Positions 20,853 to 56,179 of a DNA stretch of 64,000 nucleotides are shown piece by piece (the stretch's first letter is position 1; the number at the start of each line of letters is the position of its first letter). This DNA is from Peristeroidobacter soli (GTDB taxonomy: Bacteria; Pseudomonadota; Gammaproteobacteria; Steroidobacterales; Steroidobacteraceae), in contig NZ_RYEV01000004.1 of NCBI RefSeq assembly GCF_004138485.1, positions 1,176,803 to 1,240,802 of the forward strand, in the 5' to 3' direction. The position numbers and the translations under genes were made by a program. A model generated the notes under the pieces. It ran no database searches. It worked only from the letters and a program-made list of their open reading frames with translations, and was not told the DNA's origin.

Positions 20853-20884
20853 GTAAGAGTGAACGCGGAATCGAAAAGGAAACC
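20853..20884 (-). promoter_or_regulatory. Predicted ECF promoter of cassette B receptor
   Basis: GGTTTCC (20884-20878, minus strand), 16 bases, then CACTCTTAC (20861-20853). The same blocks and spacing occur before the cassette B sigma gene and before both the sigma and receptor genes of cassette E. An AAATATTT tract lies about 14 bases upstream. Confidence 0.7.
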
Positions 20885-20942
20885 ATCGTAGAGAAATATT
20901 TGCAGCCGGCACGCGCGCGTCGACGCGGAAGTAACATTCCGG

Positions 20943-22025
20943 TCACGGAGTGTCGGAGCGTGGCCGCCGCGAGAGATGGATCTGGCCGTCGGCGGTCGTT
21001 GCCGTCACATCGAAGCGCTGCTGCAGGAACTGCACCAGATAGTCGACACCGCTCGATGCGAACACGCCGCTGATACGAATCTCATCGAGAGCGGCGTCAT
21101 CAAGGATCAGCCGTTGACGGCTGTAACGGTTGAACTCCGCCGCCACTTCGGACAGCGGCGCGGCATCGAACATGAGTTTCTTCTGGGTCCAGGCAACGGT
21201 TGCCTCGACGTTGGTCGGCTGCGGTGGGAGGATCGCGGTTGGCGTGACGACGATCTGTTCGCCGGCGGATAACAACGCCGGCGTGGACACTCGCGCGGTG
21301 TCTCCGGATACGGCGACCCGGCCTTCCAGCACAGTGACCACCGTTCCGGCGCTCTTGCGATAGACGTCGAATTGCGTACCCACCGCGCGCACGCGGGTCT
21401 TGCCGCTGACGACGACGAACGGCCGCGCCGGATTCTTCGCCACTTCGAACAATGCCTGGCCGTCGATCAGTTCGACGGTGCGCACCTGCTCGCTGAACGA
21501 CACGCGCAGCCGCGATTGCGAATTGAGCTGCACCACCGAGCCGTCGGCCAGCGTGATGCTCCGCTGTTCACCCGTCTCCGTTACATAGGTCAAACCCCGG
21601 TCGACACGCGTCCACACCGCGAAGCCGATGATCGCGCTCAATAACGACACGCACGCGGCAACGGCAAACCGGCGCCCCACGCGACGCGCCGGAATCTGCG
21701 GCGGTGGAACAGATACATTGGGTACAGCATTCGGCACGACAACGGGCGTGCGTGCTTCCGCTTGGCGCAACGGAATGACATTGCCTTCGCTGGCGATCTG
21801 CCGGGCCAGCGCTTCCAGCTCCGCCGCGTCGAGCTTCAGCAGCTCGGCATCTTCCCAAAGCGCTGCCACCTGCAAGTAAGCGCGCACGTGAATCGGTGAA
21901 GTACGCAGCCATTCATTGAAGCTCGCCAGCTGGTCCGGCTCGACGTCGCCCACGCTGAAATCGACGAACCAGGCGGCGGCCTCTTCGGCGACTTGTTTGT
22001 TGAATCCGGAATCGCGCGCGCCCAT
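20943..22025 (-). CDS. FecR-family anti-sigma factor / sensor (cassette B)
   Basis: 360 aa. N-terminal DUF4880-type segment (EEAAAWFVDFSVGDVEPDQLASFNEWL), a single membrane helix (about 132-152, FAVAACVSLLSAIIGFAVWT), a FecR domain (EQRSITLADGSVVQLNSQSRL, GQALFEVAKNPARPFVV, GTQFDVYRKSAGTVVTVLEG) and a C-terminal STN-like domain (VAAEFNRYSRQRLILDDAAL). Start taken as the ATG at 22025, which overlaps the sigma TGA by one base (TGATG); a GTG three bases upstream is also in frame. It is close in sequence style to the cassette E FecR (shared DVYRK-GGT/AGTVVTV-EGRVAV), consistent with a common origin. Confidence 0.92.
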   Translation of the reverse strand: MGARDSGFNKQVAEEAAAWFVDFSVGDVEPDQLASFNEWLRTSPIHVRAYLQVAALWEDAELLKLDAAELEALARQIASEGNVIPLRQAEARTPVVVPNAVPNVSVPPPQIPARRVGRRFAVAACVSLLSAIIGFAVWTRVDRGLTYVTETGEQRSITLADGSVVQLNSQSRLRVSFSEQVRTVELIDGQALFEVAKNPARPFVVVSGKTRVRAVGTQFDVYRKSAGTVVTVLEGRVAVSGDTARVSTPALLSAGEQIVVTPTAILPPQPTNVEATVAWTQKKLMFDAAPLSEVAAEFNRYSRQRLILDDAALDEIRISGVFASSGVDYLVQFLQQRFDVTATTADGQIHLSRRPRSDTP

Positions 22026-22540
22026 CACTCTCCCTCCGCCAGCCGTTGCTGGCAGAACGCGAGTGCCTTCACCAGATATTTCTTGGCCATCACGCGTGAC
22101 ACGCCGAGCCGTGCGCCGATCTGTTCCAGCGTCGCGCCTTCGCAGCGATACATCAGCAGTGTCATATAGGCGCGAGGCGACTCCTCGTGCAGGGCCGCGC
22201 CCAGCTTCTCGAAGCGGTCTTCCAGCTCCGCCTCCTCGGCGGGATCGCCGGCCAGGAACGAATCCAGATCCGCGACCATGTCGGCCGGCAAAGTGCTGGT
22301 CGGCCGGTTCGAAGAACGCAACGTATGTTGATGCAGGACATGCAACGCCACGGTGTAGAGATACGCCTGCGGATTGCGGATGGACTCATGGTCCTTAATC
22401 CGCAGCAGCCGCAGAAACACCTCCTGCACCAGGTCCGGCACATCGGCCGCGGCATTGCGCAGTCGGTTGGACAGGAACCGGCGCAGCTGGCGGCCATGCG
22501 ACTGCTCCATTCCCGAAACGAAGGCTGGTGTACTGGTCAC
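22025..22540 (-). CDS. ECF RNA polymerase sigma factor (cassette B)
   Basis: About 171 aa. Region 2 (ADVPDLVQEVFLRLLRIKDHESIRNPQAYLYTVA) and region 4 (MTLLMYRCEGATLEQIGARLGVSRVMAKKYLVKAL) are intact. The start is uncertain: GTG at 22540 gives an N-terminus that aligns with the cassette E sigma factor (FVxxxxxxHGxxLRRFLS), TTG at 22570 is longer, and ATG at 22510 would remove conserved residues. The recognition helix GVSRxMxKKYL is shared with the cassette E sigma factor, and the two cassettes share a promoter motif. The gene is transcribed divergently from the hydrolase gene at 22686. Confidence 0.9.
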   Translation of the reverse strand: MTSTPAFVSGMEQSHGRQLRRFLSNRLRNAAADVPDLVQEVFLRLLRIKDHESIRNPQAYLYTVALHVLHQHTLRSSNRPTSTLPADMVADLDSFLAGDPAEEAELEDRFEKLGAALHEESPRAYMTLLMYRCEGATLEQIGARLGVSRVMAKKYLVKALAFCQQRLAEGE

Positions 22541-22596
22541 TCGATGAATCCACTCAGGGCCCACCCGCAACCGTTGCGCATGGACACCCTATTGGC

Positions 22597-22628
22597 ATTA
22601 GAGCGTGCGACCGGGTCAAAAGGAAACC
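22597..22628 (-). promoter_or_regulatory. Predicted ECF (autoregulatory) promoter of cassette B sigma gene
   Basis: GGTTTCC (22628-22622, minus strand), 16 bases, CGCTCTAAT (22605-22597). Followed by a GGGTG stretch also seen after the cassette E copy. A T7 tract lies about 9 bases upstream of the first block. Confidence 0.7.
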
Positions 22629-22685
22629 GCCGGCAAAAAAAGATTGCCGTTGACGACGCGCCGGCGGCCGATGCAACGTAATCGC

Positions 22686-23735
22686 ATGTCGAAACCCGCC
22701 TGCCTCGCCGCCGGTCTCAGCGTTTTTCTGCTCTCCAGTCCGTGGCTTGCAGCGCTCGCCGCGCCCCCGCCCGGGACCGTCCCGATGCCGGCTTTCGAGC
22801 TGCCGCCGTCCAACTACATGAGCGCCGAGGCGCGGGCCGTGCTCCAGCAATCGCTGGACCATCCCGATCCGGCATTCGGCTCGGACGTTGCCGCCGCCCG
22901 CGCCTTCTATGGACGTTTCAACGACGACCGTCTCGCCGAGATGCGGCGTCGATATGCCGTCGAGGTCCGACGCGAACCGCTTGGCGGCGTGACCGTGGAC
23001 CGGGTGATTCCCGCTTCCGGAATCGCGCCGTCGAACCGGCGCCGCGTCCTGATCAACGTACACGGCGGAGCGTTCATGTGGGGCTCGGGCAGTGGCGCGC
23101 TGGTCGAGGCCATTCCCATCGCCGCCGTCGGCGGTATCGAAGTGGTCACAGTGGATTATCGACTGGCGCCGGAGCATCGCTTTCCGGCGGCGTCGGAAGA
23201 TGTCGCGGCGGTCTATCGCGCCCTGCTGAAAACTCACCCTGCCGCGAACATTGGCGTCTATGGCTGTTCGGCCGGCGGCATCATCACTGCGCAAGCCATG
23301 GCGTGGTTCGATGCCAACCGGTTGCCGATGCCCGGCGCGATCGGCACCTTTTGTGGGACGGGCTCACCGTATGGCGGCGATAGCGCGGTTCTTTCAGCGG
23401 CCTTCAGCGGACGGGCTCCAACCGCGCCCACAGATACGCTGCCGACCCTATACATGAGCGGCGTCGAAGCCACCAACGTGCTCGGTTATCCGCTCACCTC
23501 GCCAGCGTTGCTCGCGAAGTTTCCACCCACCTTGCATCTAGCCGGCAGCCGCGACTTCGCCGCCAGTGCGCTGACGCTGTCTCATCGCAAGTTGCTGGCC
23601 CGAGGCGTCGACAGTCAGCTGGTGCTGTTCGACGGCCTCGGCCACGCGTTCTTCATGCGCCCCGACCTGCCGGAATCGCAAGAAGCCTACGCCATCATCT
23701 GGCGCTTCTTCGATGCGCGGCTCGCCCGACGCTAG
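22686..23735 (+). CDS. Exported alpha/beta hydrolase, hormone-sensitive-lipase family
   Basis: 349 aa from the ATG at 22686 (an in-frame ATG at 22671 is an alternative). Signal peptide MSKPACLAAGLSVFLLSSPWLAALA. The family motif HGGAF (126-130) forms the oxyanion hole, and GCSAGG (193-198) carries nucleophile Ser195. An Asp in LHLAGSRD and a His in DGLGHAFF complete the triad. VDYRLAPEHRFPAASED is typical of alpha/beta-hydrolase fold-3 (HSL) esterases. It acts on short acyl esters, probably in the envelope. It stands alone on the plus strand, divergent from cassette B and convergent with the next gene; their stop codons share the tetranucleotide CTAG. Confidence 0.9.
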   Translation: MSKPACLAAGLSVFLLSSPWLAALAAPPPGTVPMPAFELPPSNYMSAEARAVLQQSLDHPDPAFGSDVAAARAFYGRFNDDRLAEMRRRYAVEVRREPLGGVTVDRVIPASGIAPSNRRRVLINVHGGAFMWGSGSGALVEAIPIAAVGGIEVVTVDYRLAPEHRFPAASEDVAAVYRALLKTHPAANIGVYGCSAGGIITAQAMAWFDANRLPMPGAIGTFCGTGSPYGGDSAVLSAAFSGRAPTAPTDTLPTLYMSGVEATNVLGYPLTSPALLAKFPPTLHLAGSRDFAASALTLSHRKLLARGVDSQLVLFDGLGHAFFMRPDLPESQEAYAIIWRFFDARLARR

Positions 23736-25204
23736 CGACCCATGACGTCCTTCAGCGATATTCCCATCACGTTGTCGCGAAAATCGTCGCGCAGCCAGAA
23801 CGCTTTGAAGCCGTTGCGGGCCCCATTGAATTCACCATAGTTGTCGCCGTTGGCATCGCCCGGCTTCTCATCCTCGCCGTAGGTGTACACCGGCCGATCG
23901 CGATAAGCCCACACCGAAATCGCACCGCTCTCACCTTGCCGGGCGCGGGTGCCCGTGGCCGGATCGATATCGATCACCGACCACAGTGCGCTGTCCGCGG
24001 TCGCGCCAGGCCGCGCTTTCACATACGGGAACGTTTCCTGACACACCTTCGCATCGAAGTTCCCGCAGATGGCGAGACGATACTGTTGCGGCGACTCCGG
24101 GTGATCGCACGATTGCTGATCGAGCGCGTCGTCATTGCAGTGATACAGATAAATGGTCTTGCCGTTGGCATCCGCCAGCACCTGACCGATGCGCGAATCC
24201 TGAATCGTGAATTCGGACGGCGGCAGATGGGCACGCTGAGTAAATACATTGTGCCAACCGGGATTGTCGCTGCCGGTCATGCTGCGCGTTCGTTTCTCCA
24301 GGCGATAGGTGTAGAGCGGCTTGCCACGGAACGCCCATTGCCGGATACCGGGGGCGCGATCGACGATGCTCCATTCGCCGTGACGCTTCGCGAGCTGAGG
24401 CGCGGTCACCGGCGCCCAATCTCTCAGGCACTCCGCCGTGCAATTGGATTGGTTCGGACCGTCGGCATCGGAGCTGTAAACCGAATATCCCTTGCTCGTG
24501 ATCAACAGATGACCGGTGCGAATCGGCGCGACTTCCAGTTCCGGTGGCACATCGGAGGGCGGCCCGATGGGAAAGCGCGCAGCACCTTGCTCACCCACGA
24601 TCATGGATTTGGTGCCGCCGAGCACATCGCCCGGCTTGCGATCGCGATCCGATGTGTACAGCGGCAGGCCTTCGTAGGCCCACTGCGACTCGCCGTTCTT
24701 GCGCTTGATGACGGTCCACTTGCCGACCGGCCTGGCATCGGCGGGCGCCAGTTTCGGCTTCCACAACTGGTCGCAGCCACGCCGCTTGTCCAGATCCGGC
24801 AACAGAAAGCCCGGTGGATACGGGCTCATCAGGCCCGATGTTTCGTTGTAAATCGTATCGCCGCAGGTGGAGACGCCGCTGTTGCGCCGATCGCCGAGAT
24901 TGCCATTTCGCAATTGCTGCTGCGGCCAGATGTAAAGAGTCATGCCCTTCTCGTCCGCGAACACCGGCCCTTCCAGTTCCGTCGGCATGATCTGGATGCC
25001 CGGCGGGAGTTGCAGCGAGACCGACGCTTCACGCTGCTGGTCGGTTCGCGAATTCCAGAACGGCTCCGCCGGCAGCGCCGCCCGGCTCAGCTCGGCGCTG
25101 GCCAGCAAGACCATTCCAAAAGTCAGCGCGCCGGCGCGCAATCCTGGCAGTGAACAGCGCTCTGGCGCATGAACGCCGCGCTCCGATTTATATGAATTGA
25201 GCAC
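23732..25204 (-). CDS. Secreted-repeat (Lipoprotein_15-type) protein with several repeats
   Basis: About 490 aa. The start is taken as the GTG at 25204 with GAAGG six bases upstream; GTG at 25237 is also open. A hydrophobic export segment (GALTFGMVLLASAELSRA) is followed by at least three copies of the COG4315-type repeat: GMTLYIWP, then GYSVYSSDADGPNQSNCTAECLRDWAPV with QWAFRGKPLYTY, then GKTIYLYHCNDD with VWAYRDRPVYTY. Aromatic pairs and paired cysteines recur. These domains are usually found as one or two copies in small predicted lipoproteins of unknown function, so a 490-residue multi-repeat form is large. No lipobox Cys is obvious after the signal. Function unknown; it may bind a cofactor or metal through the Cys/Tyr-rich repeats. 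Confidence 0.85.
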   Translation of the reverse strand: MLNSYKSERGVHAPERCSLPGLRAGALTFGMVLLASAELSRAALPAEPFWNSRTDQQREASVSLQLPPGIQIMPTELEGPVFADEKGMTLYIWPQQQLRNGNLGDRRNSGVSTCGDTIYNETSGLMSPYPPGFLLPDLDKRRGCDQLWKPKLAPADARPVGKWTVIKRKNGESQWAYEGLPLYTSDRDRKPGDVLGGTKSMIVGEQGAARFPIGPPSDVPPELEVAPIRTGHLLITSKGYSVYSSDADGPNQSNCTAECLRDWAPVTAPQLAKRHGEWSIVDRAPGIRQWAFRGKPLYTYRLEKRTRSMTGSDNPGWHNVFTQRAHLPPSEFTIQDSRIGQVLADANGKTIYLYHCNDDALDQQSCDHPESPQQYRLAICGNFDAKVCQETFPYVKARPGATADSALWSVIDIDPATGTRARQGESGAISVWAYRDRPVYTYGEDEKPGDANGDNYGEFNGARNGFKAFWLRDDFRDNVMGISLKDVMGR

Positions 25205-25302
25205 GTGAACCTTCGTTGGATCCCCCGACCCGGTCACGATAGCTCAAGGCGTTGAAACTGCAACTCACTCCAGCCGCGCTGCCGCCGGCATCCAAAAGAG
25301 CC

Positions 25303-25640: not shown

Positions 25641-25699
25641 CCTTATTAAAGGTTATAGCCAGAACTGTTAACAATGAGTTCCCTATTCAAGGTTTCTCG

Positions 25700-26080: not shown

Positions 26081-26098
26081 CGTGATAGCCGGACTGAC

Positions 26099-26127: not shown

Positions 26128-26139
26128 GCGCTGCACAGA

Positions 26140-29118
26140 TCAGCGGCCGCCGAACGACACCTTCACGCCGCCATAGTAGAAGCGCCCGACCGGGCTGACC
26201 GGGTAGATGGTGGTGTAGTCGGGGCGTTCGTCCGTCAGGTTGTTCACACCTGCGTAGATGCGATAGCCGCCGGCGAAATCGTACGAGGCCGAGAGGTCGT
26301 GCGTTGCACGCGCGTCGTAGTAGATGTTCGAGCGCGAGGCCTGATCGGGATTGCCGGCCAGGGTCTGCAGCGAATAACGCGTGGTCTTGCTGAAGTAGTT
26401 GTAACCGTAGTTCACGGTCAGGCCGTGATACTCCCAGGTCGTGTCGAACACGGTCGTCCACTTCGGCGCGTAGGTGCCGCTGCTCAGATCGGCGGTGGTG
26501 CGCTGGTCGATCTGTTCGGCCCCCAGGGTCGGGATGGTGGTCAGGCGGTCGAGCCGGCTGCCGACCAGCGAGAACGCGAACGTGCCGATATCCGCATCCA
26601 TGCCGAGCCGCACCGGATCGAGCCGATAGTCGATGTTGAAATCGATGCCGCGAGTCCGGAACGACGCGACGTTCTCCGGCTGCACCACGAACGTGCTGAT
26701 GGCGCCGGAGCCGGCGGTACGGGTCAGCGAGTCGCAGAAGACATTGTCGATGCTGGGCTGGTCGACGCAATTGTCGGCGACATCCTGAGCGTCGGCGGTG
26801 TTGATGGCTTGTTTGATGTTGATGTCGTAGTAGTCGATCGACACCGCCAGGCCGTCAACGAACCGCGGCCGGAACACCGCGCCGAAGGTGTAGGTGCGCG
26901 CGGTCTCCTCGCTCAAGCTCGCATTGCCGGTGGACATGCCGGGGATGGTCGCGGAGTTCGGATCTGTGAACGCCCCCGGATTTGCCACGCCCAGCGCGGA
27001 CAGGATGGCCTGGCAGTTCGCGACACGATAGCTGCTGCCGTTGGCCAGATTGGCCGTATCGCAAGGATCCAGGATGGACTCGAACGTCTGACTCTGGGGA
27101 CTGAACAGCTCGGCGATATTGGGAGCACGCACCGATTCGGCGATGGTGCCGCGGAAGCTCACATCCCGCACCGGCACCCACAACAGGCCGGTATTCCAGG
27201 TGGTCGTGCTGCCCACCGTCGAGTAGTCGGACACCCGCACCGCACCGGAAACCTGCAGCCGCTCGACGAACGGTTTGTCGGCGAGCACCGGAATACGAAC
27301 TTCGGCGAACGCCTCCTTCACGTCGAAGTCGCCATCGGTCGGCAGGATGACGTTGCCGAACGTCTGCCCCAACTGATCCGCCAGCGGCGGATTGGAACGG
27401 CTGCCCTCGCGGCGCCATTCCACGCCCATCACGGCGTCGATGTCACCCGCGGGCAAGGAGATGCCCGGTACCGGGCCGGACACGAAGGCGTTGAAAACAT
27501 TCTGGGTCAATCGCGACGTGGTCTTGTTGTTGAGCATGACCCAGGCCAGCGCGGCCGGATCGGCCACGCCTTCGCCGAAGATGTTCAACGGCCGGCAACC
27601 GCTGTTGGCGCCGGGAGTGAAAGACAACGGCCCGGAGAAGTCGAAACCCTGCGCCGGCTGATACGGCAAGGCGCTCGGATCCAGATTGGAACGACACGTC
27701 GCCTGCCCGGTGAGCGGATCGGTCACCACGTCGATCGCCGCGAAGAACCGGTCGTTGTAGCGGTTGTTCAAGGCAAGCGAATCGATGTCGGACTGGCCGT
27801 AGGTATACGACACTTCGTAGTGATAGCGACTCCAGACATCGCCGTTCACGCCGGTCACGAAGCGCATCGTGTCGCGCGTGACTTCTTCGCCGCGCACCCC
27901 GAGGTCGAAATTGTCGCGACTCACCAGCACGCCGTCGGGTGCCGTCGGGTCCTCGAAGCTATCTGCCATCGCGCCCGGAACGACTCGCGCCGCCACGGCA
28001 GCCGGCAGATACGGGTTATCCGCATGCTCGAACAGGTAGAAGTCGAAGGTCGGCTGGCCATACGCGGTGGCTTTACCGTGCACGAACTTCGCTTCGCCGA
28101 AGAAATTCACCGCATCGCTGACCTGGAAGTGACCGAAGACGCTCGCCACCGTCGTCTTGGCCTCCGGCAGCAGATCGCCGATGTAGTCCGAGAGCGGCGT
28201 GCCGCTGCCGCCCTGCGAATAGTACGGTGAGACGAATCGGGGAATCTCATAGTCGCTGCCATCCGGCAGGGTATCGGGCGTGAAGTCGATATCGGTGTCG
28301 ATGGCACCGGCGCGGGCGCTGTCGAAAAAGCGGATGTCGTTGAGCGGCACTTCGTCCGGGATGCTCGGATCGTCGCCCGGATCGTCCGGATTGCGCCTCA
28401 TGGTCGTATAGTTGGCGCCGCGCAGGTAACTGCGATCGCTGGCCCGCAAGCGACCACGATCCGTGTGCTGGATGGAGCCGGAGATGTTGCCCCGGCCATC
28501 GGCGAAGTTCAGGCCGCCCGTCAAGGTCGCGAGCACGTCGTTCGCGCCGCCGGCCTCGCTGCCACCGTACTGCACGCGCCCGACCAGGCCTTCGAAGTTC
28601 TTCTTCATCACGAAGTTCACCACGCCGGACACGGCGTCGGCACCGTACACCGCCGATACGCCGCCAGTGACGATGTCCACCCGCTCGATCAAGTCCATCG
28701 GGATGGTGTTGATGTCGACCGCGGCGGTTTCCGGCAACTGCGCCACGTGGCGCCGTCCGTCCACCAGCACCAGGGTGCGCGCCTCGCCGAGATTGCGCAG
28801 GTTCAGCAGGTTCAGGCCGGTGCTGCCGATGTAGCCCTGCGAACCGGTGTTGGTCAGATCGTCCTCGGAAGACAGCAACGCCGGCAGGTTCCGCAGGTAG
28901 TCGGTGAGATTGGTGGTGCCCGCGCGCTCGATGCTTGCGGCCGAAATGGCCACGGTTGGGGTCGGCGCGTCGAACTCGTTCTGCTTGATGCGCGAACCCG
29001 TGACGATGACCTCGGTTACCTCGCCCTCATCCTGGGCATGCACGGGGGCCAGCCCGAACAGGCCTGCACACACCGATACAACTGCAACTCCGCGCTCCAG
29101 CCCGGTTCGATTTTTCAT
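26140..29118 (-). CDS. Orphan TonB-dependent receptor without STN domain
   Basis: 992 aa from the ATG at 29118, with a signal peptide (MKNRTGLERGVAVVSVCAGLFGLAPVHAQ). Directly after it comes the TonB-box-like TEVIVTGSRIKQ, plug domain (LLNLRNLGEARTLVLVDGRR, GGVSAVYGADAVSGVVNFVMKK) and a beta-barrel (final segment YGGVKVSFGGR). There is no STN domain and no sigma/FecR pair next to it, so it cannot signal in the manner of the six cassette receptors. The downstream peptidase copy is a frameshifted remnant. A TACAAT hexamer at 29151-29156 could be a sigma-70 -10 element. It is divergent from the diguanylate cyclase gene. Ligand unknown; family habits suggest peptides or other large molecules. Confidence 0.92.
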   Translation of the reverse strand: MKNRTGLERGVAVVSVCAGLFGLAPVHAQDEGEVTEVIVTGSRIKQNEFDAPTPTVAISAASIERAGTTNLTDYLRNLPALLSSEDDLTNTGSQGYIGSTGLNLLNLRNLGEARTLVLVDGRRHVAQLPETAAVDINTIPMDLIERVDIVTGGVSAVYGADAVSGVVNFVMKKNFEGLVGRVQYGGSEAGGANDVLATLTGGLNFADGRGNISGSIQHTDRGRLRASDRSYLRGANYTTMRRNPDDPGDDPSIPDEVPLNDIRFFDSARAGAIDTDIDFTPDTLPDGSDYEIPRFVSPYYSQGGSGTPLSDYIGDLLPEAKTTVASVFGHFQVSDAVNFFGEAKFVHGKATAYGQPTFDFYLFEHADNPYLPAAVAARVVPGAMADSFEDPTAPDGVLVSRDNFDLGVRGEEVTRDTMRFVTGVNGDVWSRYHYEVSYTYGQSDIDSLALNNRYNDRFFAAIDVVTDPLTGQATCRSNLDPSALPYQPAQGFDFSGPLSFTPGANSGCRPLNIFGEGVADPAALAWVMLNNKTTSRLTQNVFNAFVSGPVPGISLPAGDIDAVMGVEWRREGSRSNPPLADQLGQTFGNVILPTDGDFDVKEAFAEVRIPVLADKPFVERLQVSGAVRVSDYSTVGSTTTWNTGLLWVPVRDVSFRGTIAESVRAPNIAELFSPQSQTFESILDPCDTANLANGSSYRVANCQAILSALGVANPGAFTDPNSATIPGMSTGNASLSEETARTYTFGAVFRPRFVDGLAVSIDYYDINIKQAINTADAQDVADNCVDQPSIDNVFCDSLTRTAGSGAISTFVVQPENVASFRTRGIDFNIDYRLDPVRLGMDADIGTFAFSLVGSRLDRLTTIPTLGAEQIDQRTTADLSSGTYAPKWTTVFDTTWEYHGLTVNYGYNYFSKTTRYSLQTLAGNPDQASRSNIYYDARATHDLSASYDFAGGYRIYAGVNNLTDERPDYTTIYPVSPVGRFYYGGVKVSFGGR

Positions 29119-29269
29119 GTAGTGCTCCGATACGACGCGACAACCTCGGCATTGTAGCCGCTGATGTGCCCTCACTGCCGCATGGCCATTGGTTGCAGCT
29201 GCCATTTCCGTGACGCAGATTCCGAACAGGTCACATCCGCCATGGCAGGAACGGCTTAGTCTTGGCGGC

Positions 29270-30496
29270 ATGGTCAAGGGGGCACCACTGAATCTCGCGG
29301 CAATGCCGGGTTCGCCGCAGGCGGCGGAGCTGGTGCGTGCTCAACAGGAGCTGCGGTTCAGCCCCGCAATGGAGGCGGAGTATGTCCGCACCCATCTGCT
29401 CGGCAGCCGGCTTCTCATTCGTGTGACGTGCGTCCTCGCCGCTGTGCTGTCGATTGCCCGGGCCGTCGAGCAAACGGCGGCCGGCTTCCCGGTAGGCGGC
29501 CCCGCCGCCGCACTTGCCGTCGTTACCATTGCTTCGGTGCTACTGGCGTCCCTGGCGTGGAGCTCGGCTTTCGAGCGCCACTTTCTACCCGTGGCCCGTG
29601 TAATCGTTCCAATCAGGAACGTGGTCGTGGCCGGTTGCATCACCGCCGCCGCCGCCGAGGGTCAGCGTGAAATGCTGATGATCCTGCCGGTGCTGTTGTT
29701 CGGCCCCTTCTTCTTTTTGGGGTTGAGCTACCGGACGGCGCTGTTCACGGGCGTACTGACAGCGGTTTCCTTTGTCGTTCACGCCACGCTCGCCGGGCTC
29801 GCGCTGCCCGTAGCCCTGCGCGCCATCACCTTCCTGCTCATCGCCCTGGCGGGCTGTGCCCTCGCCGCCCGGCATCTGGAACGACTGTCACGCACCACCT
29901 TTCTGGAAACCCGCCTGATTTCGCAGCTGGCTCAACACGACACGCTGACCGGTACCAAGAACCGCCGCGTTTTCGACGAGCACCTGGCGCGCCTCTGGCC
30001 GCAGGCTGTCACGGAAGGGCGCACGATCGCCATCGTGTTGATCGACGTCGACCATTTCAAAGCCTACAACGATTGTTACGGACACCAGGCAGGCGACGTG
30101 ACCCTGCGGCGGATCGCCGAATGTCTGCAGTCGCTCGTGCGGGGTCCGCTCGATGTGTTGTCCCGTTATGGCGGTGAAGAGTTCGTCGCCATGCTCTACG
30201 ACGTCGACACCGATCAGGCCGTGGCCCTCGCCGATCGCGTGCGCCGCGGCGTCCACGAACTGGGGATGGAGCATCGCGGCTCTCGCACGTCCGCGACCAT
30301 CACCATCAGCGTCGGCGTCGCCGTCATCGAACCGTCCGCCGCAAGAACCCCTCGCGGCGCCCTGCAACTCGCCGACCAAGCGCTCTACGCAGCGAAGGTC
30401 GGCGGCAGGAATCGCGTTCGAGTGATGAACGAGACCGACTACGGAATGCTCGTGACCGGCGTGTTCGACAAGCAACCCGGCGCGGCCAGGGCTTAG
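29270..30496 (+). CDS. Membrane-bound GGDEF diguanylate cyclase
   Basis: 408 aa from the ATG at 29270. The N-terminal half holds about six membrane helices (between about residues 45 and 205, for example LLIRVTCVLAAVLSIARAV and AITFLLIALAGCALAA), followed by a complete GGDEF domain with DTLTGTKNRRVF, DVDHFKAYND and GGEEF at residues 301-305. It should make cyclic di-GMP. The inhibitory I-site RxxD expected just before the active site reads GPLD, so product feedback inhibition is probably missing. It is divergent from the orphan receptor across a 151-base gap. Its TAG stop overlaps the TAA stop of the convergent S9 peptidase gene by four bases. Confidence 0.92.
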   Translation: MVKGAPLNLAAMPGSPQAAELVRAQQELRFSPAMEAEYVRTHLLGSRLLIRVTCVLAAVLSIARAVEQTAAGFPVGGPAAALAVVTIASVLLASLAWSSAFERHFLPVARVIVPIRNVVVAGCITAAAAEGQREMLMILPVLLFGPFFFLGLSYRTALFTGVLTAVSFVVHATLAGLALPVALRAITFLLIALAGCALAARHLERLSRTTFLETRLISQLAQHDTLTGTKNRRVFDEHLARLWPQAVTEGRTIAIVLIDVDHFKAYNDCYGHQAGDVTLRRIAECLQSLVRGPLDVLSRYGGEEFVAMLYDVDTDQAVALADRVRRGVHELGMEHRGSRTSATITISVGVAVIEPSAARTPRGALQLADQALYAAKVGGRNRVRVMNETDYGMLVTGVFDKQPGAARA

Positions 30497-35949: not shown

Positions 35950-35953
35950 TTCT

Positions 35954-47596: not shown

Positions 47597-47620
47597 CGCG
47601 TTCCATCGCCTTCCCTCGGC

Positions 47621-49319: not shown

Positions 49320-49353
49320 CTAAGTGTTTTCAGGGCCCCCTCATCTTCTCCCA
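49320..49353 (-). promoter_or_regulatory. Predicted ECF (autoregulatory) promoter of cassette D sigma gene
   Basis: TGGGAG (49353-49348, minus strand), 21 bases, CACTTAG (49326-49320). The first block lies inside the last codons of the upstream peptidase gene. The 85-base gap to the sigma gene shows no other feature. Confidence 0.5.
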
Positions 49354-51426
49354 GCGTGCGTACTGCTCAGGATCCACCGGATCCGAGGCTTTGCGGCCCT
49401 CCAGCCAGAACTCGAACCACTGCAAGTTGCGGCGATAGATATTGATCCGGTGCCGCGGCTGCCATTTGACATGGTGCTCGTCGGGGAACACGTGCATCTC
49501 CACGGGCTTGCCAGCATCCTGCAGGGCCGCGACCTCTTGAATGGAGATGTCCAGTTCCTCGTCGCTGACGTTCACCAGCAGCGGCGCACGAATGCGCTGC
49601 ACGTTCCAGGCGTAGGACAACGCTCTATAGCTCTCCAGCTGTGGCGACGGGATGCCGCCCCAGTACTGGCGCAATTCCTTGCGGACCCGCAAAGTATCGG
49701 TGTAGTACCACCACGCCGGCGTTGCCACGCTGCTGACCGCCGCAGCCGCGATCCGATCCGAATTGACCAGCGCGAAGTGCACCTGCTGAGCGCCGTCGCT
49801 CAGGCCGGTCATGCCGACCCGGCTCGGGTCGATCAATCCCCGGCGATCCAGCATATCGAGCATTCGTTCGATCGACGTCCAGGTCGAGCGACGGTGAGCC
49901 AGATTGCGTTCGCTCGCCTCGGCGAGCTTCGCCAGCGGCACGCGCGAACGGTTTTCGATCTCGAACGGCTGCGAAGCGCACAGGACCATCAAGCCCGCCG
50001 CCGCGAACGCATGAGCCGGATATTCGTCTCCAGTATCTCCACGTAAAAAACCCGTTGCGTCGTACGGCAGCACCACCAGCGGGTAACGTCGGCCTGCGAC
50101 GTAGTCATTGGGATAGATCAGCCGCCCGAAAGCAGGGTTACCAAAACCGTCCTGCCAATGCAGCGTCTCGATGCGGGTGAGCCGCAGACTGCGAAACTCC
50201 GGATTCGGATCGTAAAGCACGCGCATACGTCCGGACTGCAGATCGATGGCGACGAGCTGACGCGGCGTGGCCGGACCTTCGTGCAGACAAATGACCTGCC
50301 GCTCCTGCGGCTGACAGTCCATGATCTTGTCGTCGGTCTCGTAGATCGTGCGCACGGTGCCGGTCCGTGGCGCCCATGCGTAAAGCCCATAGACATTGCC
50401 GCCGACGAAATCGAGGCGAGAGAAATAGAGCTGCTTGCCGTCGGCGCGCCAGCGCACGATATCAAACGATGAATATCCGGAACACTGCTCGGCAGCGCAG
50501 GCCGTGACCTTGTCGCCTGTCTTCGCATGCAGCCGAACGACAGGTCGCGCCGCCGTAGCGGTCGCGGGGTCCATCACCTGAAGCCAGGCTGTGTCGCCGT
50601 TGCCGGCGGACGTCTTCATGCGTTCGAGAGGATCCGCGGGCTCGCCGGACGATGAGTCGCCTGACATTGCCTGCCGCTCCTCATCCGACGCCGCACGAGC
50701 ACGCCCGGTGTCCAGCTCCAGCACGCGCACCTCAGGATCGCACTTCCGCTCCAGCAGCACCGCATTCATTCGTCCTTCGCCGCACCAACGTCGCGCGGGA
50801 ACCCGGCCCGAATAGGGAATGAAACGGTCGTCGAACAGATAACCGCGCTGCGCCTCCTGCGCCAGCTCGCCCTCACTTTGCCCGCGAGGAAGCGCGACCG
50901 TATAAAGCACGCGCTTGCCGTCTTCGCTCAAATTGAAGTCGATCACATCGGCGTCGTCGCGCGTGACCTGCTCAGTCACACCGCCATCGACAGCGCTGCG
51001 CCAGACGTTCACCGTCCCCGCCACGAGCTTGAGATAGAAGATGGACTTCGCGTCCGTCGACCACCGTGCGCGCTCCGGCGGCCGATACCCCGCCGCCAGG
51101 TAGAACTTGGCGCGATTCCTCATCAGCTCGCCGCCGTCGGCCACGGCGCGCGTCTGCGCCTTCGCGCCAGTTGACGACACCAGCCACGTCAGCTGATAGG
51201 TGTTGCGCTCCACGTCCGGCACTTGCAATTGGAACGCCACCATCGAGCCGTCCGGCGACACGCTGAGCGCGCTATTACTCGCACTGACGGCGAGGCCACC
51301 GATATCACGCAGGCCGCTGAGGTCCTCCACGTTGAGCGACCGTGCCATCGCAGGCGCCGCGGCCAACAACGCGCTCGCGAGCATCGCAGCGCTCAGCGAG
51401 CGCTGCTTTCCAAAGTACGTACGCAT
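49330..51426 (-). CDS. Exported S9 peptidase of the Atxe2-like lasso-peptide isopeptidase type (cassette E)
   Basis: 698 aa from the ATG at 51426, with signal peptide ending at APAMARS. A beta-propeller N-terminal half (about 30-420) precedes the alpha/beta-hydrolase domain with nucleophile Ser543 in GLSDG, an acidic residue in NVSDEELD (622-626) and His at 651-652 in FPDEHHVKWQPRHR. The GLSDG nucleophile motif, the DEHHVKW segment and the ending NLQWFEFWLEGRK with PEQYARWEKM resemble the Atxe2 family of isopeptidases, which open the macrolactam ring of lasso peptides. In producers these genes sit with a TonB receptor and FecI/FecR, as here, but no lasso precursor, B or C biosynthetic gene is present in the window. 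It starts four bases after the receptor stop. Activity on lasso or other cyclic/branched peptides is inferred. Confidence 0.85.
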   Translation of the reverse strand: MRTYFGKQRSLSAAMLASALLAAAPAMARSLNVEDLSGLRDIGGLAVSASNSALSVSPDGSMVAFQLQVPDVERNTYQLTWLVSSTGAKAQTRAVADGGELMRNRAKFYLAAGYRPPERARWSTDAKSIFYLKLVAGTVNVWRSAVDGGVTEQVTRDDADVIDFNLSEDGKRVLYTVALPRGQSEGELAQEAQRGYLFDDRFIPYSGRVPARRWCGEGRMNAVLLERKCDPEVRVLELDTGRARAASDEERQAMSGDSSSGEPADPLERMKTSAGNGDTAWLQVMDPATATAARPVVRLHAKTGDKVTACAAEQCSGYSSFDIVRWRADGKQLYFSRLDFVGGNVYGLYAWAPRTGTVRTIYETDDKIMDCQPQERQVICLHEGPATPRQLVAIDLQSGRMRVLYDPNPEFRSLRLTRIETLHWQDGFGNPAFGRLIYPNDYVAGRRYPLVVLPYDATGFLRGDTGDEYPAHAFAAAGLMVLCASQPFEIENRSRVPLAKLAEASERNLAHRRSTWTSIERMLDMLDRRGLIDPSRVGMTGLSDGAQQVHFALVNSDRIAAAAVSSVATPAWWYYTDTLRVRKELRQYWGGIPSPQLESYRALSYAWNVQRIRAPLLVNVSDEELDISIQEVAALQDAGKPVEMHVFPDEHHVKWQPRHRINIYRRNLQWFEFWLEGRKASDPVDPEQYARWEKMRGP

Positions 51427-51430
51427 GACG

Positions 51431-54430
51431 TCAGAACCGCTTGGTGAGATTGAGATAGCCGAAGCGCTGACGCATGTCGCTGGTGGTCGCGTCGAACCCT
51501 TGCTGGGTGCTGTTCGAGAACGATGGCGCACGGTCGAACAGATTGTTCACGCCGAGCCTGATGCTCGTGCCGCGACCCAGCCAGGAATCGCCGAACGCGT
51601 CGAAGTCGATACGCGCCTGCAGATCCACGAATGTCTGCTCCGGTACGTGCAGCCCGTTGGGCACGCCGAACGTGCCATCGGCGTAGCCGGACATGTAACG
51701 CGCCGTCGCCGTCAGTCCCACGCCGTTACGCAGCCAGTCGAGCGCCGCGACGGCACGCCATCGAGGAATGGCCCCCATCGAAGAACCACCGGCGGTTGCG
51801 ACGCGCTGAACGGCGAGCTGTCCGGGAAAGTCGGCCACTTCATAGCTGCCGATCCAGGTCGTCGCCACGGTCGGCGAGAACCGGCCGAACGCGCTGTCGA
51901 AGGGCCGCGACATCTCCAGGTCGATGCCATGAACTTTCAAGCTGCCGAAATTGACGGAGGTGGAGTCGACACTGATCAACCGCCCCGGCACGCCGGCCGC
52001 GATATCCGCCGGCGTTTGCGGCTCACGCAGCACTCGATCGTGAAACAGCGCCTCGCTACGCACGATCAGCAAAGGATCGAGCAAGTTGATGCGCAGGTCC
52101 TGCGAGATGCGCCAGAAAGAGGCGGCAATCTTCAACCCGCCCTCACCCTCGGGCATGAACACCAATCCCGCGGTCATCGAATCGGATTCTTCCGGCTGCA
52201 GCGACGGATTGCCGCCGAAGCTGCGGACATAAACCGCCGTCTCATCGTTGCGCGCCGGATCCTGCATGACCGCATTGGGCGTGATGTACTGAGGCGCGTA
52301 AAGATCCCACAAGCTGGGCGCGCGATAGTTGGTGCCGTAGGTCGCTCGCAGCAGCAGCGACTCGATCGGATACCACTCCACTCCATATTTGGGATTGAAC
52401 ACGCCGCCGAAATCGTCGTAATTGTCGTAGCGCCCCGCCAGCGTCAGAGCGATCCGGCGAGCACCGGGCACCTGCATCGATTCGCCCACCAATGGCACGC
52501 GAGTTTCAGCATAGGTCGCCCAGGTCTTGCGGTCGCCGTTCACGACATAGTTCATGCCCGTGACGCGAATGCGCGCATCTTCCTTCCGACTTTCCGCGCC
52601 GATGACGAGTTGCACATCACCGGCCGGAAGCGTGAACAACGCTCCTCGCGCGAAAGCACCCAACTGAGTTGCCCGTGACGTGGTGAAGAATCGCGACGGC
52701 AGCGGATCCGCCACCAAAGAGCGCAACAACGCATCGCTGCCACCAGGACCGTCTTGAAACGGATTGAATGCGGTTGCGGGGTCGCTCGATGCCAACGCTG
52801 CTGTCAGTCGAGCGGTATCGATGGCATTACGCGAATTGTCCTGCCACGCCACATCTTCGAAGCCAACAGCGGAGATTTCCCAGTCCCAACCACCCAATTC
52901 ACCTTTCAAGCCACCGACCGCACGCCACGACTCCGACTCCGCGTACTGCGCACGACCGAGGTCATTGGTAAAAGCGTAGTTGACGCTCACAGTCTGGCCG
53001 AACGGATTGAAGGCGTTGCTGGCGGGCACCAGCATGTTGGTGCGAGGCTCGGGGCCAAGCCGGTTGCGACTCTCCAGGCGATTGAACAGCAGCTCCGCGA
53101 AAGCCGTCACCTGGTCGGTCAGCGAGACATCGCCAAAGATCAAACCGCCCTTGCGCTCGCTCGACGCAATCAAGTCACGATAGCGCCCGAGCGTGTCGCG
53201 ATTCTGCTGGCCCGCCGTGGCCGCGAAGTCCGCAGGCGTCAGCCCAACGCCGGTGCTACCGACAGGAACCACCGCACACGGAGCGGACAGACCAGGAAGA
53301 TTCGCACCGTTCGTGGAACAGACATTCGCGGGGTTGGTAGCTGTGGTGCGCTGGTCGGTGCTGCCGAAGCGACGGTAATCCGCATTCGAGGTGATATCAC
53401 GCTCACCGCCGAGCATCCCGCCGCGATCGTAGTAATCCATTACGACGCCGACGCGCGCGCGCTCCCAGGAATGGCCGATCGATCCCGAAGCACGGCGCTC
53501 GCGCCCGCCACCGTCGGCCGTTCCGTAGTACACATCGGCGGTAGGCGCCTCGATCTCGCTCTTCAGTACGATGTTGACGACACCGCCGACCGCGTCGGCG
53601 CCGTAGACGGCCGATGCCGAATCGGCAAGCACCTCGACGCGCTCCACCGCCGCGAGCGGAATCGTGTTCAAGTCGAAGAAGTTCTGTGACGTGCCCAGAC
53701 CGGACACGACGGCGCGTCGACCGTTGATGAGCACGAGCGTCGTGCCACCCGCCAGACCTCTCAGGCGCACCTCGCGCGCGCCGCCCGGGCGATTCGCATC
53801 GCCGGCCCAGGACGCCTGCTGCGTCAAATACTTCAAAGCGTCTGCAACGTTGGTCACGCCGAGCTGATTCAACTTCTCGCGTGCAAACACCGTCAGCGGC
53901 GACACGCCTTCGGCAGACTCCTGCTTCAGACGTGAGCCCGTGACCAGCACCTCTTCCGCGCTGATCTTCTGCGGTGTTCGAGCGGAATCGCCGCGCGGCC
54001 CCGCGTCGCTTTCCACTGCCTGCCCGCTCTGTGCAGAAGAAACATCGGCCTGCGCGAGCCGAAAGCGCGACCAGAACGGCCCCTTGTCGTGACTGTTCGA
54101 AACATCGCCCGTGCGTCCGCCGGGCGCCGGCGGCACGATCGTGATAGTTCGCTCATCCAGATATCGGTAGCCCAGGCCTGAGCCGCCGAGCAGTTGCTGA
54201 AGCACTTCATCCACCGTGAGATCGCCGGCGACACCGGTGGTGCGCAGATCTTTCACCAACGTCGAGCGAAAGATGATCTGCAGATCGCGCTGCCTGGCGA
54301 AGCCCTGCAGGGCCGTCTCCAATTCCTGGGCGGCGATGTGAGTTTGTTTGCGAATGGCAGCCTGCGCAGCGGACGTTGCTGAGATGGCGACCGCCGACAG
54401 CGCAATGGCAACGGCAATGGATACACGCAT
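51431..54430 (-). CDS. STN-domain TonB-dependent receptor (cassette E)
   Basis: 999 aa from the ATG at 54430, which has a near-perfect GGGGAGGAATC ribosome site. A longer in-frame start at 54496 would fall at the predicted transcription start and is rejected. Signal peptide (MRVSIAVAIALSAVAISATSAAQA), STN domain about 30-100 (ETALQGFARQRDLQIIFRSTLVKDLRTTG, VLQQLLGGSGLGYRYL), linker with FRLAQAD at 123-129, TonB-box-like EEVLVTG at 159-165, plug and barrel (terminal GYLNLTKRF). The peptidase behind it suggests that the ligand is a compact or cyclised peptide. Confidence 0.93.
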   Translation of the reverse strand: MRVSIAVAIALSAVAISATSAAQAAIRKQTHIAAQELETALQGFARQRDLQIIFRSTLVKDLRTTGVAGDLTVDEVLQQLLGGSGLGYRYLDERTITIVPPAPGGRTGDVSNSHDKGPFWSRFRLAQADVSSAQSGQAVESDAGPRGDSARTPQKISAEEVLVTGSRLKQESAEGVSPLTVFAREKLNQLGVTNVADALKYLTQQASWAGDANRPGGAREVRLRGLAGGTTLVLINGRRAVVSGLGTSQNFFDLNTIPLAAVERVEVLADSASAVYGADAVGGVVNIVLKSEIEAPTADVYYGTADGGGRERRASGSIGHSWERARVGVVMDYYDRGGMLGGERDITSNADYRRFGSTDQRTTATNPANVCSTNGANLPGLSAPCAVVPVGSTGVGLTPADFAATAGQQNRDTLGRYRDLIASSERKGGLIFGDVSLTDQVTAFAELLFNRLESRNRLGPEPRTNMLVPASNAFNPFGQTVSVNYAFTNDLGRAQYAESESWRAVGGLKGELGGWDWEISAVGFEDVAWQDNSRNAIDTARLTAALASSDPATAFNPFQDGPGGSDALLRSLVADPLPSRFFTTSRATQLGAFARGALFTLPAGDVQLVIGAESRKEDARIRVTGMNYVVNGDRKTWATYAETRVPLVGESMQVPGARRIALTLAGRYDNYDDFGGVFNPKYGVEWYPIESLLLRATYGTNYRAPSLWDLYAPQYITPNAVMQDPARNDETAVYVRSFGGNPSLQPEESDSMTAGLVFMPEGEGGLKIAASFWRISQDLRINLLDPLLIVRSEALFHDRVLREPQTPADIAAGVPGRLISVDSTSVNFGSLKVHGIDLEMSRPFDSAFGRFSPTVATTWIGSYEVADFPGQLAVQRVATAGGSSMGAIPRWRAVAALDWLRNGVGLTATARYMSGYADGTFGVPNGLHVPEQTFVDLQARIDFDAFGDSWLGRGTSIRLGVNNLFDRAPSFSNSTQQGFDATTSDMRQRFGYLNLTKRF

Positions 54431-54502
54431 GATTCCTCCCCAATGGCCTCTAAGGCTCGTTGTTACCGCCATCCCGTGTGTGAATGGTCGGTTCATGGGG
54501 TG

Positions 54503-54534
54503 ATTAGAGTGAGGAACATGCGAAACAGGACACC
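54503..54534 (-). promoter_or_regulatory. Predicted ECF promoter of cassette E receptor
   Basis: GGTGTCC (54534-54528, minus strand), 16 bases, CACTCTAAT (54511-54503). An A6 tract (54545-54540) lies just upstream, overlapping the FecR stop. Same architecture as cassette E sigma and both cassette B promoters. Confidence 0.7.
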
Positions 54535-54544
54535 GCGAATTTTT

Positions 54545-55582
54545 TCACTGCGGTGTCGGGAGAGACGACACGCGAATGCTGTCACCATCGGCACGCACGG
54601 TGAGATCCGGTTGCGTCCTCAAGAACTCGACCAGCGCGTCGTAATCGGTCGTGGCGAACACCGCGGTGATCGGAAAGTCATCGACACCCTCGTCGATGAC
54701 CAGACGCTTGCGATTGTGACGATTGAACTCTTCCACCACGGCGGAGAGCGGCGTCGAATTGAACATCAATTGTCCACGCGTCCACGCGGTGGCGGCAGCA
54801 ACGTTGGCAGCCTTCGGCAGCGGCACGGATAACGGTTCAATCGTCACCTGCTCACCTGCTGCCAGCAGAATTTCACCCTCGGGCAAAGCATCCAGCGGTG
54901 CGGATCCCGACGTCACCGCGACCCGTCCTTCGACGACGGTCACCACCGTTCCGCCTTGCTTGCGATAGACGTCGAAGCGCGTGCCGACCGCTCGCACCTG
55001 TGCCTGCCCACTGCGCACCAAAAAGACGCGCTGCGGATCCTTCACCACTTGAAACATGGCCTGCCCGGACAGCAGATCGAGCGCGCGTTCGTGTTCGGAA
55101 AACCGCACGCGGATGCGCGACTGAGCGTTCATCTCGACCTTCGAGCCGTCCGGCAAGGTCAGCGTACGCAACTCACCGATGCCAGTGACGTAGGCTGGAG
55201 CACGCAGCAACGGCAGCGCGATGAGAGCGGCGACCACAACCAGCACAGCACATGCGGCGGCCATGACACGCGGCCAGGCACGACGGCGGATCCCTGCCTG
55301 ACCCGACTGGCGGCCAACGGCGGGAACCACGGGCTGATCCAACGCCACCACATTGATATCCGCTCGCGCCATTGCCGTCAGCGCGTCCGCATCGAGCTTG
55401 CGCTCTGCATCCACCAAAGGCAGATCCGACCACAACGCAATGATGCCGAGATAGGCACGCACGTGCTCCGGCGAGATGCGCAACCATGCGACGAAGCGGT
55501 CCTGTACCGCCGGATCGCCCGGTTGCTCACGCAACGCCGTGAACCACTCCGCCGCCTCATCGAATATCTGTCCGTGGATCAT
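54545..55582 (-). CDS. FecR-family anti-sigma factor / sensor (cassette E)
   Basis: 345 aa. N-terminal segment (IFDEAAEWFTALREQPGDPAVQDRFVAWLRISPEHVRAYL), membrane helix about 107-125 (VMAAACAVLVVVAALIALPLL), FecR domain (GELRTLTLPDGSKVEMNAQSRIRV, GQAMFQVVKDPQRVFLVRS, GTRFDVYRKQGGTVVTVVEGRVAV) and C-terminal STN-like domain (LSAVVEEFNRHNRKRLVIDEGVDDFPITAVF). It starts seven bases after the sigma stop. It is most similar, by eye, to the cassette B FecR. Confidence 0.92.
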   Translation of the reverse strand: MIHGQIFDEAAEWFTALREQPGDPAVQDRFVAWLRISPEHVRAYLGIIALWSDLPLVDAERKLDADALTAMARADINVVALDQPVVPAVGRQSGQAGIRRRAWPRVMAAACAVLVVVAALIALPLLRAPAYVTGIGELRTLTLPDGSKVEMNAQSRIRVRFSEHERALDLLSGQAMFQVVKDPQRVFLVRSGQAQVRAVGTRFDVYRKQGGTVVTVVEGRVAVTSGSAPLDALPEGEILLAAGEQVTIEPLSVPLPKAANVAAATAWTRGQLMFNSTPLSAVVEEFNRHNRKRLVIDEGVDDFPITAVFATTDYDALVEFLRTQPDLTVRADGDSIRVSSLPTPQ

Positions 55583-55589
55583 GGCGGTC

Positions 55590-56114
55590 CTACTCGCGAT
55601 TCAGCTGCTCGAAGCGTTGCCGGCATACCGACAGCGCCCGGGACAGGTATTTCTTGACCATGCTGCGCGAAACGCCCAGGCGCCCGGCGATCTCGTCCAG
55701 AGAGAAGCCGTCACGACGATGCATCAACAGCACGGCGTGCGCCTTGGGCGGCATCTTCTCCAGCACGCGCTCGATCTTTTTCAGGCGCTGCTGAGCATCC
55801 GCCAGCATGGCTGGATCGTCTTCGGGCAGGGTGTGCAGGTCGGCGACCAGCTCGTCGATATCGACCGTGGCCGGCGCCCCATTCTGGCGCAGCGAGTGTT
55901 CGCGCAGCAGGTGACTCGCCACCGTGATGAGATAAGCCTCGGGGCTGCGAATCTCCTCGTGCCGTTCCACCCGCAACAGGCGCAAGTACACCTCCTGCAC
56001 GAGGTCCGGCGTGTCCGCCCGGTTGCGCAGCCGCTGCGACAGGAATCGACGCAGCCGCCCGCCATGGCGCTCGGCGATGGTCGCGACAAAAGATTTCCGG
56101 TCTTGATTGCTCAA
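55590..56114 (-). CDS. ECF RNA polymerase sigma factor (cassette E)
   Basis: 174 aa from a TTG at 56114 with AGGG seven bases upstream. A GTG at 56138 is open, but it would lie within about three bases of the predicted transcription start. Region 2 (RADTPDLVQEVYLRLLRVERHEEIRSPEAYLITVASHLL) and region 4 (MPPKAHAVLLMHRRDGFSLDEIAGRLGVSRSMVKKYLSRALSVCRQRF) are complete. Recognition helix GVSRSMVKKYL parallels GVSRVMAKKYL in the cassette B sigma factor. The two sigma factors are therefore candidates for overlapping promoter recognition. Confidence 0.9.
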   Translation of the reverse strand: MSNQDRKSFVATIAERHGGRLRRFLSQRLRNRADTPDLVQEVYLRLLRVERHEEIRSPEAYLITVASHLLREHSLRQNGAPATVDIDELVADLHTLPEDDPAMLADAQQRLKKIERVLEKMPPKAHAVLLMHRRDGFSLDEIAGRLGVSRSMVKKYLSRALSVCRQRFEQLNRE

Positions 56115-56147
56115 CTGCGGCCCTGGACGGACACCCACCCTGTCTGT

Positions 56148-56179
56148 ATCAGAGTGGGGCCGGGCCGAAAAGGGACACC
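56148..56179 (-). promoter_or_regulatory. Predicted ECF (autoregulatory) promoter of cassette E sigma gene
   Basis: GGTGTCC (56179-56173, minus strand), 16 bases, CACTCTGAT (56156-56148), with an AAAAATAAA tract directly upstream. Nothing else is visible in the 56115-56259 gap. Confidence 0.7.

Follow-up and report, generated by a model that had tools for sequence, protein, structure and literature searches.

Extracytoplasmic function (ECF) sigma factors that resemble FecI are described as a family that does not regulate itself, a statement that we cite, like all published work below, from excerpts of the papers. In Escherichia coli, FecI acts on one promoter only, and fecIR lacks autoregulation (PMC9249621). 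The FecI-like groups ECF05-10 were excluded from the Rhodius 2013 ECF promoter map 'as they do not autoregulate' (PMC3817407), and a 2021 review places FecI-like sigmas among the exceptions to autoregulation (PMC8103513). That review also gives a reported residue-to-base code for the -35 and -10 boxes of autoregulated ECF sigmas (PMC8103513). HemI of Stenotrophomonas maltophilia was tested and found not to be autoregulated, in a system whose receptor is truncated (PMC12772443), and the excerpted account of Sinorhizobium meliloti identifies no promoter motif before fecR and the receptor gene (PMC6180224). Here we analyse a 64,000-nucleotide stretch of the Peristeroidobacter soli draft genome (contig NZ_RYEV01000004.1, positions 1,176,803 to 1,240,802; hereafter the window), which holds cassettes A to F of this general kind. 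Two of them, B and E, each encode a FecI-type sigma factor, a FecR-type anti-sigma factor and a TonB-dependent receptor, and each carries one two-box motif twice, before the sigma gene and before the receptor gene. For these cassettes the sequence predicts autoregulation of the sigma-fecR genes, the opposite of what is stated for the FecI family.

We consider it probable that the four sites are -35/-10 promoters of cassette-specific FecI-type sigmas, which would autoregulate and would serve mainly insulated cassettes. The argument for promoters is strong and that for insulation moderate.

Four matching sites in cassettes B and E

A sequence-only reading of the window had reported the motif GGTKTCC-N16-CRCTCTNAY at four places. 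All four sites were found at exactly the positions given (Table 1), on the minus strand and with 16 bases between the blocks, and each stands just upstream of its gene, as had been said. At the receptor genes, the likely ATG start codons lie about 65 (B) and 72 (E) bases past the -10 blocks and are accompanied by purine-rich Shine-Dalgarno-like stretches, both as judged by eye. Dinucleotide-shuffled versions of the window contained on average 0.01 matches to the motif.

A genome-wide search, which the same reading had put forward as a check, bore it out. The exact pattern occurs four times in the 9,374,132-base draft genome (17 contigs), at these same four sites and each time before a sigma or receptor gene of B or E, and the pattern read backwards as a control gave 0 matches. 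Since the motif had been fitted to these four sites, such perfect specificity is in part a product of its design and by itself no proof. Relaxing K to N added a fifth match, at C1:951976, where a search within 1.5 kb yielded no cassette gene. Autoregulated ECF sigmas are recognized by one motif that stands ahead of both the sigma gene and the presumed target gene, and B and E each show this arrangement.

Matched pairs across the genome

The 9.37 Mb genome contains 104 FecR-domain matches, 6 in the window and 98 outside it, the latter covered by 97 stretches. A sigma open reading frame (ORF) lies upstream of 100 of these matches and a receptor was found for 77; a distance limit of about 1 kb left 99 usable sigma regions and 73 cassettes with both sigma and receptor. 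In each of these 73 the upstream regions of the sigma and receptor genes were searched for a shared two-box match, whose score was compared with those of all 5256 mismatched pairs. Matched promoter pairs at p<=0.005 were present in 20 cassettes, where 0.4 were expected, and 21 cassettes passed a 10% false-discovery limit. A cassette's own receptor region was the best of the 73 for its sigma region in 16 cassettes (1 expected), and the reverse direction also gave 16. This test superseded a less well weighted one (two boxes, spacer 15-17), in which 10 of the 73 cassettes scored >=14/15 as against 1.4% of 858 mismatched pairs.

The spellings vary from pair to pair, for example GGGCCCAAA..CGCTCTAC, CATTTCCAnAA..CGTCTAAA and GTGACAnAC..TGCGTC. 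Paired promoters of this kind appear to be common in the genome; to call them universal would go beyond the data.

Two further features of the cassette collection were observed. The most similar sigma-gene upstream regions of all 2628 cassette pairs (score 26.7) belong to window cassette F (sigma gene 63131-63721) and to C2:108807, and both of these regions contain AGTACCG..CGTCATAG. At C2:1389103, 1390327 and 1392233, three FecR matches lie on one strand within about 3.4 kb, and for two of the three there is no receptor less than 1 kb away.

A shared predicted promoter form in the clade of sigmas B and E

A tree of 144 sigma sequences, 99 from this genome and 45 from stretches of relatives, placed B and E within one 41-member clade (support 0.902; next node 0.988), of which 12 members belong to this genome. 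The relatives' cassettes had been selected for their similarity to sigma B or E, and the clade is therefore not an unbiased sample. Sigmas B and E are not sisters: with midpoint rooting E is the first to diverge, and B is placed deeper, near the sigma of C3:1346084 (cassette H). Starting from sites of the window and of paralogs, we refined a promoter matrix by iteration. In a 55-member set it detected a site scoring above 10 in 86 of the 108 upstream regions, against an expectation of 1.05 in shuffled sequence; the count is in-sample, as the matrix was trained on the regions it scored. The clade's promoter form is approximately GGTnnCC-nnTTT-N10-CRCTCTWA.

We then asked how far the two sites of one cassette resemble each other, with sites located by the position weight matrix alone and partner information unused. 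Among the 29 of 41 clade cassettes with both sites above 10, agreement within cassettes exceeded that between cassettes for the -35 box (0.931 vs 0.711; 0 of 10000 permutations), the -10 box (0.828 vs 0.660; 0 of 10000) and spacer length (0.897 vs 0.698; 2 of 10000), while the spacer letters showed no significant within-cassette agreement (1809 of 10000). The -35 and -10 agreement also held within this genome (0 and 1 of 10000; 10 of 15 cassettes). Cassettes lacking two sites above 10 were left out of these comparisons (12 of the 41, 5 of the 15, and 18 of the 55-member set). The permutations ignore relatedness, and kinship is covered in part by comparing a cassette's own pair with its nearest relative across 37 cassettes of the 55-member set: the own pair agreed better in 25, tied in 9 and lost in 3 for the -35 box, and won in 21, tied in 9 and lost in 7 for the -10 box.

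A strict pattern of the clade architecture was also tried and set aside. It matched in 1 of 369 genomes of the class and 2 of 150 of the family, this genome being counted in both, and the only sites were that of receptor E and a receptor site in relative G023. Because it misses B, where the T run starts two bases earlier, it is uninformative on absence elsewhere and served as a low-background control only.

Conservation in relatives

With K relaxed to N, the pattern has two matches in a relative of the same genus (G008), both before the ortholog of cassette B. The cassette is syntenic there, with the same gene order, a receptor 88% identical and a sulfatase 92% identical over 341 residues. At both sites the 7- and 9-base boxes are unchanged and several spacer positions differ. 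This conservation was observed for cassette B; the best match to sigma E in G008 (60%) groups with another cassette in the tree, and a search of genome contigs found distant matches to sigma E at two acidobacterial loci, with 27-29% identity. Overall the relaxed pattern matched in 7 of 98 genomes, this one included; beyond G008 there were six scattered matches in five other relatives.

These comparisons bear on the idea that the motif is a relic of the clade, common to B and E through sigma kinship, with no functional link between the two and only partial promoter use today. A clade-wide architecture does exist, and B and E both fall in that clade. Against this, the two sites of a cassette agree with each other more than with those of the nearest relative, a pattern not easily accounted for unless selection continues, and in G008 the boxes have been kept while the spacer has drifted. 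We regard a relic as very improbable.

Sigma residues and promoter bases

We next compared sigma residues with promoter bases, using 90 sites from 51 of the 55 cassettes; sites scoring <=8 were dropped, and the sites were pair-refined, that is, partner information was used. Associations of the -35 bases lean towards sigma region 4 and those of the -10 bases towards region 2, a contrast that excludes the nearly invariant promoter positions 2 and 17 and for which no significance was computed. For single positions the null was simulated on the tree (17 promoter positions, 600 simulations, maxima over all columns). The association of the first -35 base with helix column 143, the M of GVSRxM, was reached by 0 of 600 simulated all-column maxima. 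A -10 position tied to region 2 columns 54 and 56 was reached by 73 of 600.

The structure of one ECF complex shows the -35 box being read by the corresponding helix (sigma-H R186, S182 and M181) and the -10 box by the region 2 specificity loop (PMC6411747). Immediately before the M of our helix, at residue 142, sigma B has V and sigma E has S. In the 51-cassette table this residue varies with the fourth base of the -35 box, the K of the motif: V goes with T in 5 of 5 cases, S with G in 5 of 7, A with A in 9 of 10 and P with A in 9 of 11. By our own mapping, from an alignment and the sigma-H sequence, the sigma-H -35 contacts presumably correspond to helix columns 145-150, which would put columns 142-143 in the same helix, slightly earlier.

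The covariation also speaks to whether the sites might be operators for another regulator and not sigma-specific promoters at all. Their boxes are indeed unlike the AAC/CGT hallmark that the excerpted review gives for ECF promoters (PMC8103513). Such a regulator would have to account for two boxes that lean to different sigma domains, for one -35 base tied to the recognition helix and for a spacing that is held within cassettes of the 41-member clade. We give this possibility the least credence of those considered.

The sequence-only reading had predicted autoregulation and receptor control. Sequence evidence supports both well, in the form of within-cassette pairs, conserved boxes and covariation with the sigma, one link of which is significant after correction.

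Probable separation of cassettes B and E

Cross-talk between B and E had also been proposed, and part of the proposal drew on the recognition-helix pattern GVSRxMxKKYL. That pattern is present in sigmas B and E and absent from those of A, C, D and F, but it is not special to the pair. A looser form, G[VI]SR.M.K[KR]YL, occurs in 15 of the 144 sigmas, and its presence in 7 of this genome's 99 makes the helix unusable for pairing B with E.

The promoter scores do bring B and E together. For the sigma region of B, the score was 24.2 against the receptor region of B itself and 21.7 against that of E (second of 73). For the B receptor region, the corresponding scores were 24.2 against the sigma region of B and 21.2 against that of E (again second of 73). 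The E receptor region scored 21.7 with its own sigma region and, in a tie, 21.7 with the B sigma region; the E sigma region scored 21.7 with its own partner, 21.3 with C1:152604 and 21.2 with B (third). Cross scores so near to own scores, together with one consensus found at four sites and nowhere else in the genome, are what might be seen if B and E formed one shared regulon, in which either sigma drives all four promoters and deliberately couples the sulfatase to lasso-peptide uptake. We think this unlikely. Sigmas B and E are not sisters, and among the 2628 sigma-promoter similarities the B-E pair ranks only 40. The helix residue before M differs between them, and the B pair is retained in G008, where the best match to sigma E lies with another cassette.

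The K base separates the two cassettes as well. Both sites of B, in this genome and in G008, have T there, as do both sites of H; the two E sites have G. Across the 37 cassettes, with sites located by the matrix alone, the base is concordant between a cassette's two sites in 35 (0.44 expected), and both exceptions are A/G. T pairs only with T (6 of 6 cassettes, one of them in an irregular box) and is never mixed with G or A. In one cassette, G008 C163, the box reads GGTGTCC ahead of the sigma gene and GGTAGCC in the region of the receptor, which suggests that A/G differences at this base are tolerable. The K position points to discrimination between B and E over a shared code, with a residue link that is not significant after correction.

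Cassette H (C3:1346084), which lies outside the window about 113 kb from E, carries a GGTTTC(C/T) box and a 15-base spacer at both of its sites. This third cassette with a B-type box, with the non-sister sigmas and the differing K base, counts against the proposed cross-talk, for which the high mutual scores remain. The H sigma is 64% identical to sigma B, and a LysR-type regulator gene and a PQQ dehydrogenase-like gene follow the H receptor. We rejected the exact K pattern as a signature of B and E alone, as a widened pattern, GGTKTCY-N15-17-YRNTCWNA, also matches both H sites. The widened pattern has 14 matches (reversed control, 5): six are the B, E and H sites, one falls within or beside a further cassette's sigma gene (L271), and around the other seven no cassette gene turned up within 1.5 kb. 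The notion that H resembles B more than E does was only half borne out: H has B's -35 box, yet it falls outside B's six best matches by a whole-site score that requires equal spacing. A genome scan allowing two mismatches was too loose to use alone (161 matches vs 137 for the reversed control), though the matches listed include the paralog sites C1:152186 and C3:891856.

Seven lasso peptide isopeptidases of the Atxe2 family score over the cut-off in this genome, at C5:648002, C1:144868, C3:1226204 (that of window cassette E), C1:212274, C5:426252, C8:340804 and C2:1052449. The first four lie, by coordinates, downstream of receptors of the B/E sigma clade, and the promoter spellings of these cassettes differ in the -35 or the -10 box. 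From these differing spellings, related uptake systems appear to be separately wired. With moderate confidence, the sequence favours separate switches over cross-talk between B and E, and limited cross-recognition is possible.

Genes of the two cassettes

Both cassettes have the composition of a surface-signalling system, with a sigma factor (regions 2 and 4), then a FecR-domain protein and a TonB receptor with an STN domain (Table 1). Neither sigma reached the cut-off of the model for true FecI (NCBIfam NF041727, 260 bits): sigma B scored 59.7 and sigma E 70.5, and we call them FecI-like, not FecI. For sigma B the GTG is the more likely start because a one-base indel relative to G008 lies upstream of that point.

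Table 1. Predicted promoters and genes of cassettes B and E, in window coordinates
Feature	Position	Strand	Details
Predicted promoter, sigma B	22597..22628	-	-35 GGTTTCC (+TTTT), 16-base spacer, -10 CGCTCTAAT; boxes identical in relative G008
Predicted promoter, receptor B	20853..20884	-	-35 GGTTTCC (+TTTT), 16-base spacer, -10 CACTCTTAC; boxes identical in relative G008
Predicted promoter, sigma E	56148..56179	-	-35 GGTGTCC, 16-base spacer, -10 CACTCTGAT; pair test p=0.0004
Predicted promoter, receptor E	54503..54534	-	-35 GGTGTCC, 16-base spacer, -10 CACTCTAAT; pair test p=0.0004
FecI-type ECF sigma factor B	22025..22570	-	ORF from TTG 22570; GTG near 22540 likelier start
FecR-type anti-sigma factor B	20943..22028	-	DUF4880 + FecR
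TonB-dependent receptor B, STN signalling domain	17968..20946	-	likely start ATG near 20787
Sulfatase, downstream of receptor B	16498..17922	-	92% identity in G008 (341 residues present)
FecI-type ECF sigma factor E	55590..56138	-	start possibly TTG 56114
FecR-type anti-sigma factor E	54545..55582	-	domain match
TonB-dependent receptor E, STN domain	51431..54496	-	likely start ATG near 54430
Atxe2-family lasso peptide isopeptidase, downstream of receptor E	49330..51531	-	NF033523, 642 bits, cut-off 400

Two other loci of the window deserve mention. A 1324-residue ORF at 2197-6171 (minus strand) has an X-Pro dipeptidyl peptidase part (S15/PepX_C) followed by a DUF885 part and is apparently a fusion. 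At 26140-29277 (minus strand), a TonB receptor adjoins a GGDEF gene (29189-30496, plus strand); an STN domain and a neighbouring sigma or FecR were unmatched among the ORFs scanned.

Discussion

We propose that each sigma would transcribe its own sigma-fecR operon, in positive autoregulation, and that the second, like-spelled promoter would drive the TonB-dependent receptor and the enzyme downstream of it, the sulfatase in B and the lasso peptide isopeptidase in E. A ligand sensed through the receptor STN domain and FecR would free the sigma, and receptor, enzyme, sigma and FecR would rise together. Sigmas of the clade would share a promoter architecture and differ at cassette-specific -35 and -10 bases, which would keep the cassettes mainly insulated, with residual cross-recognition between B and E and possibly H. 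The sites, their pairing, the conservation of those in B and one strong sigma-promoter covariation are observed; transcription from the sites, autoregulation, insulation and the ligand signal are what we infer.

Several results weigh against this proposal, beginning with the statements on E. coli fecIR and on the FecI family quoted at the outset. No pair at p<=0.005 was found in 53 of the 73 testable cassettes, and in the window only B and E pass, the pair test being not significant for C, D and F (cassette A, with its receptor absent within 1 kb, lay outside the test). Among the 20 paired cassettes the own partner ranked first in 16 and second in 4, and the E receptor region scored equally with the sigma regions of E and B. 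Within this genome, spacer-length agreement was not significant (1011 of 10000 permutations; 10 of 15 cassettes). Only the first -35 base, of 17 promoter positions, clearly passed the all-column test. The K position failed it at 184 of 600, its top column being 123 and column 142 coming second (p=0.0017 alone); all -10 positions failed it as well, 50 of 600 being the lowest value; and for the first -10 base the link leads to a column in region 4. Lastly, no close ortholog of cassette E was found in 39 other genomes, the best sigma being 60% identical, for which reason the E sites have no footprint and their case is that of their own pairing.

More broadly, the genome may hold an expansion of about a hundred cassettes with a diversified sigma-promoter code, in which at least 20 detectable private pairs act as self-amplifying switches, set by -35 bases (residues 142-143), -10 bases (region 2.3/2.4) and spacer length; we see the chances for and against this wider picture as evenly balanced. 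If it is true, a family stated not to autoregulate would contain a natural library of orthogonal sigma switches. Should the cassettes autoregulate, the rule of non-autoregulation would fail for a large FecI-like clade, and the many paralogs with paired promoters would supply unusually dense data on the sigma-to-promoter code and on the means by which a single cell keeps dozens of related signalling systems apart. Among the literature matches listed, we found no report of paired cassette-specific promoters for FecI-like sigmas; papers on ECF reclassification and on the residue code may mention them.

Set beside described systems, cassettes B and E combine features of two kinds. Like the autoregulated RpoE-type ECF sigmas, their sigma genes are preceded by the promoter type that the sigma recognizes, here as a prediction (PMC8103513). 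Unlike those, their boxes are GGTnnCC and CRCTCT and lack the hallmark AAC in the -35 and CGT in the -10 that the excerpted review describes (PMC8103513). They share the gene order FecI, FecR and TonB receptor with the S. maltophilia HemI and S. meliloti FecI systems. As in the E. coli FecI-FecR-FecA system, there is an ECF sigma with only sigma2 and sigma4, a FecR regulator, a TonB receptor bearing an STN domain and a putative sigma-dependent promoter before the receptor (PMC9249621). Unlike E. coli Fec, cassettes B and E carry a promoter of the predicted receptor type before the sigma gene too.

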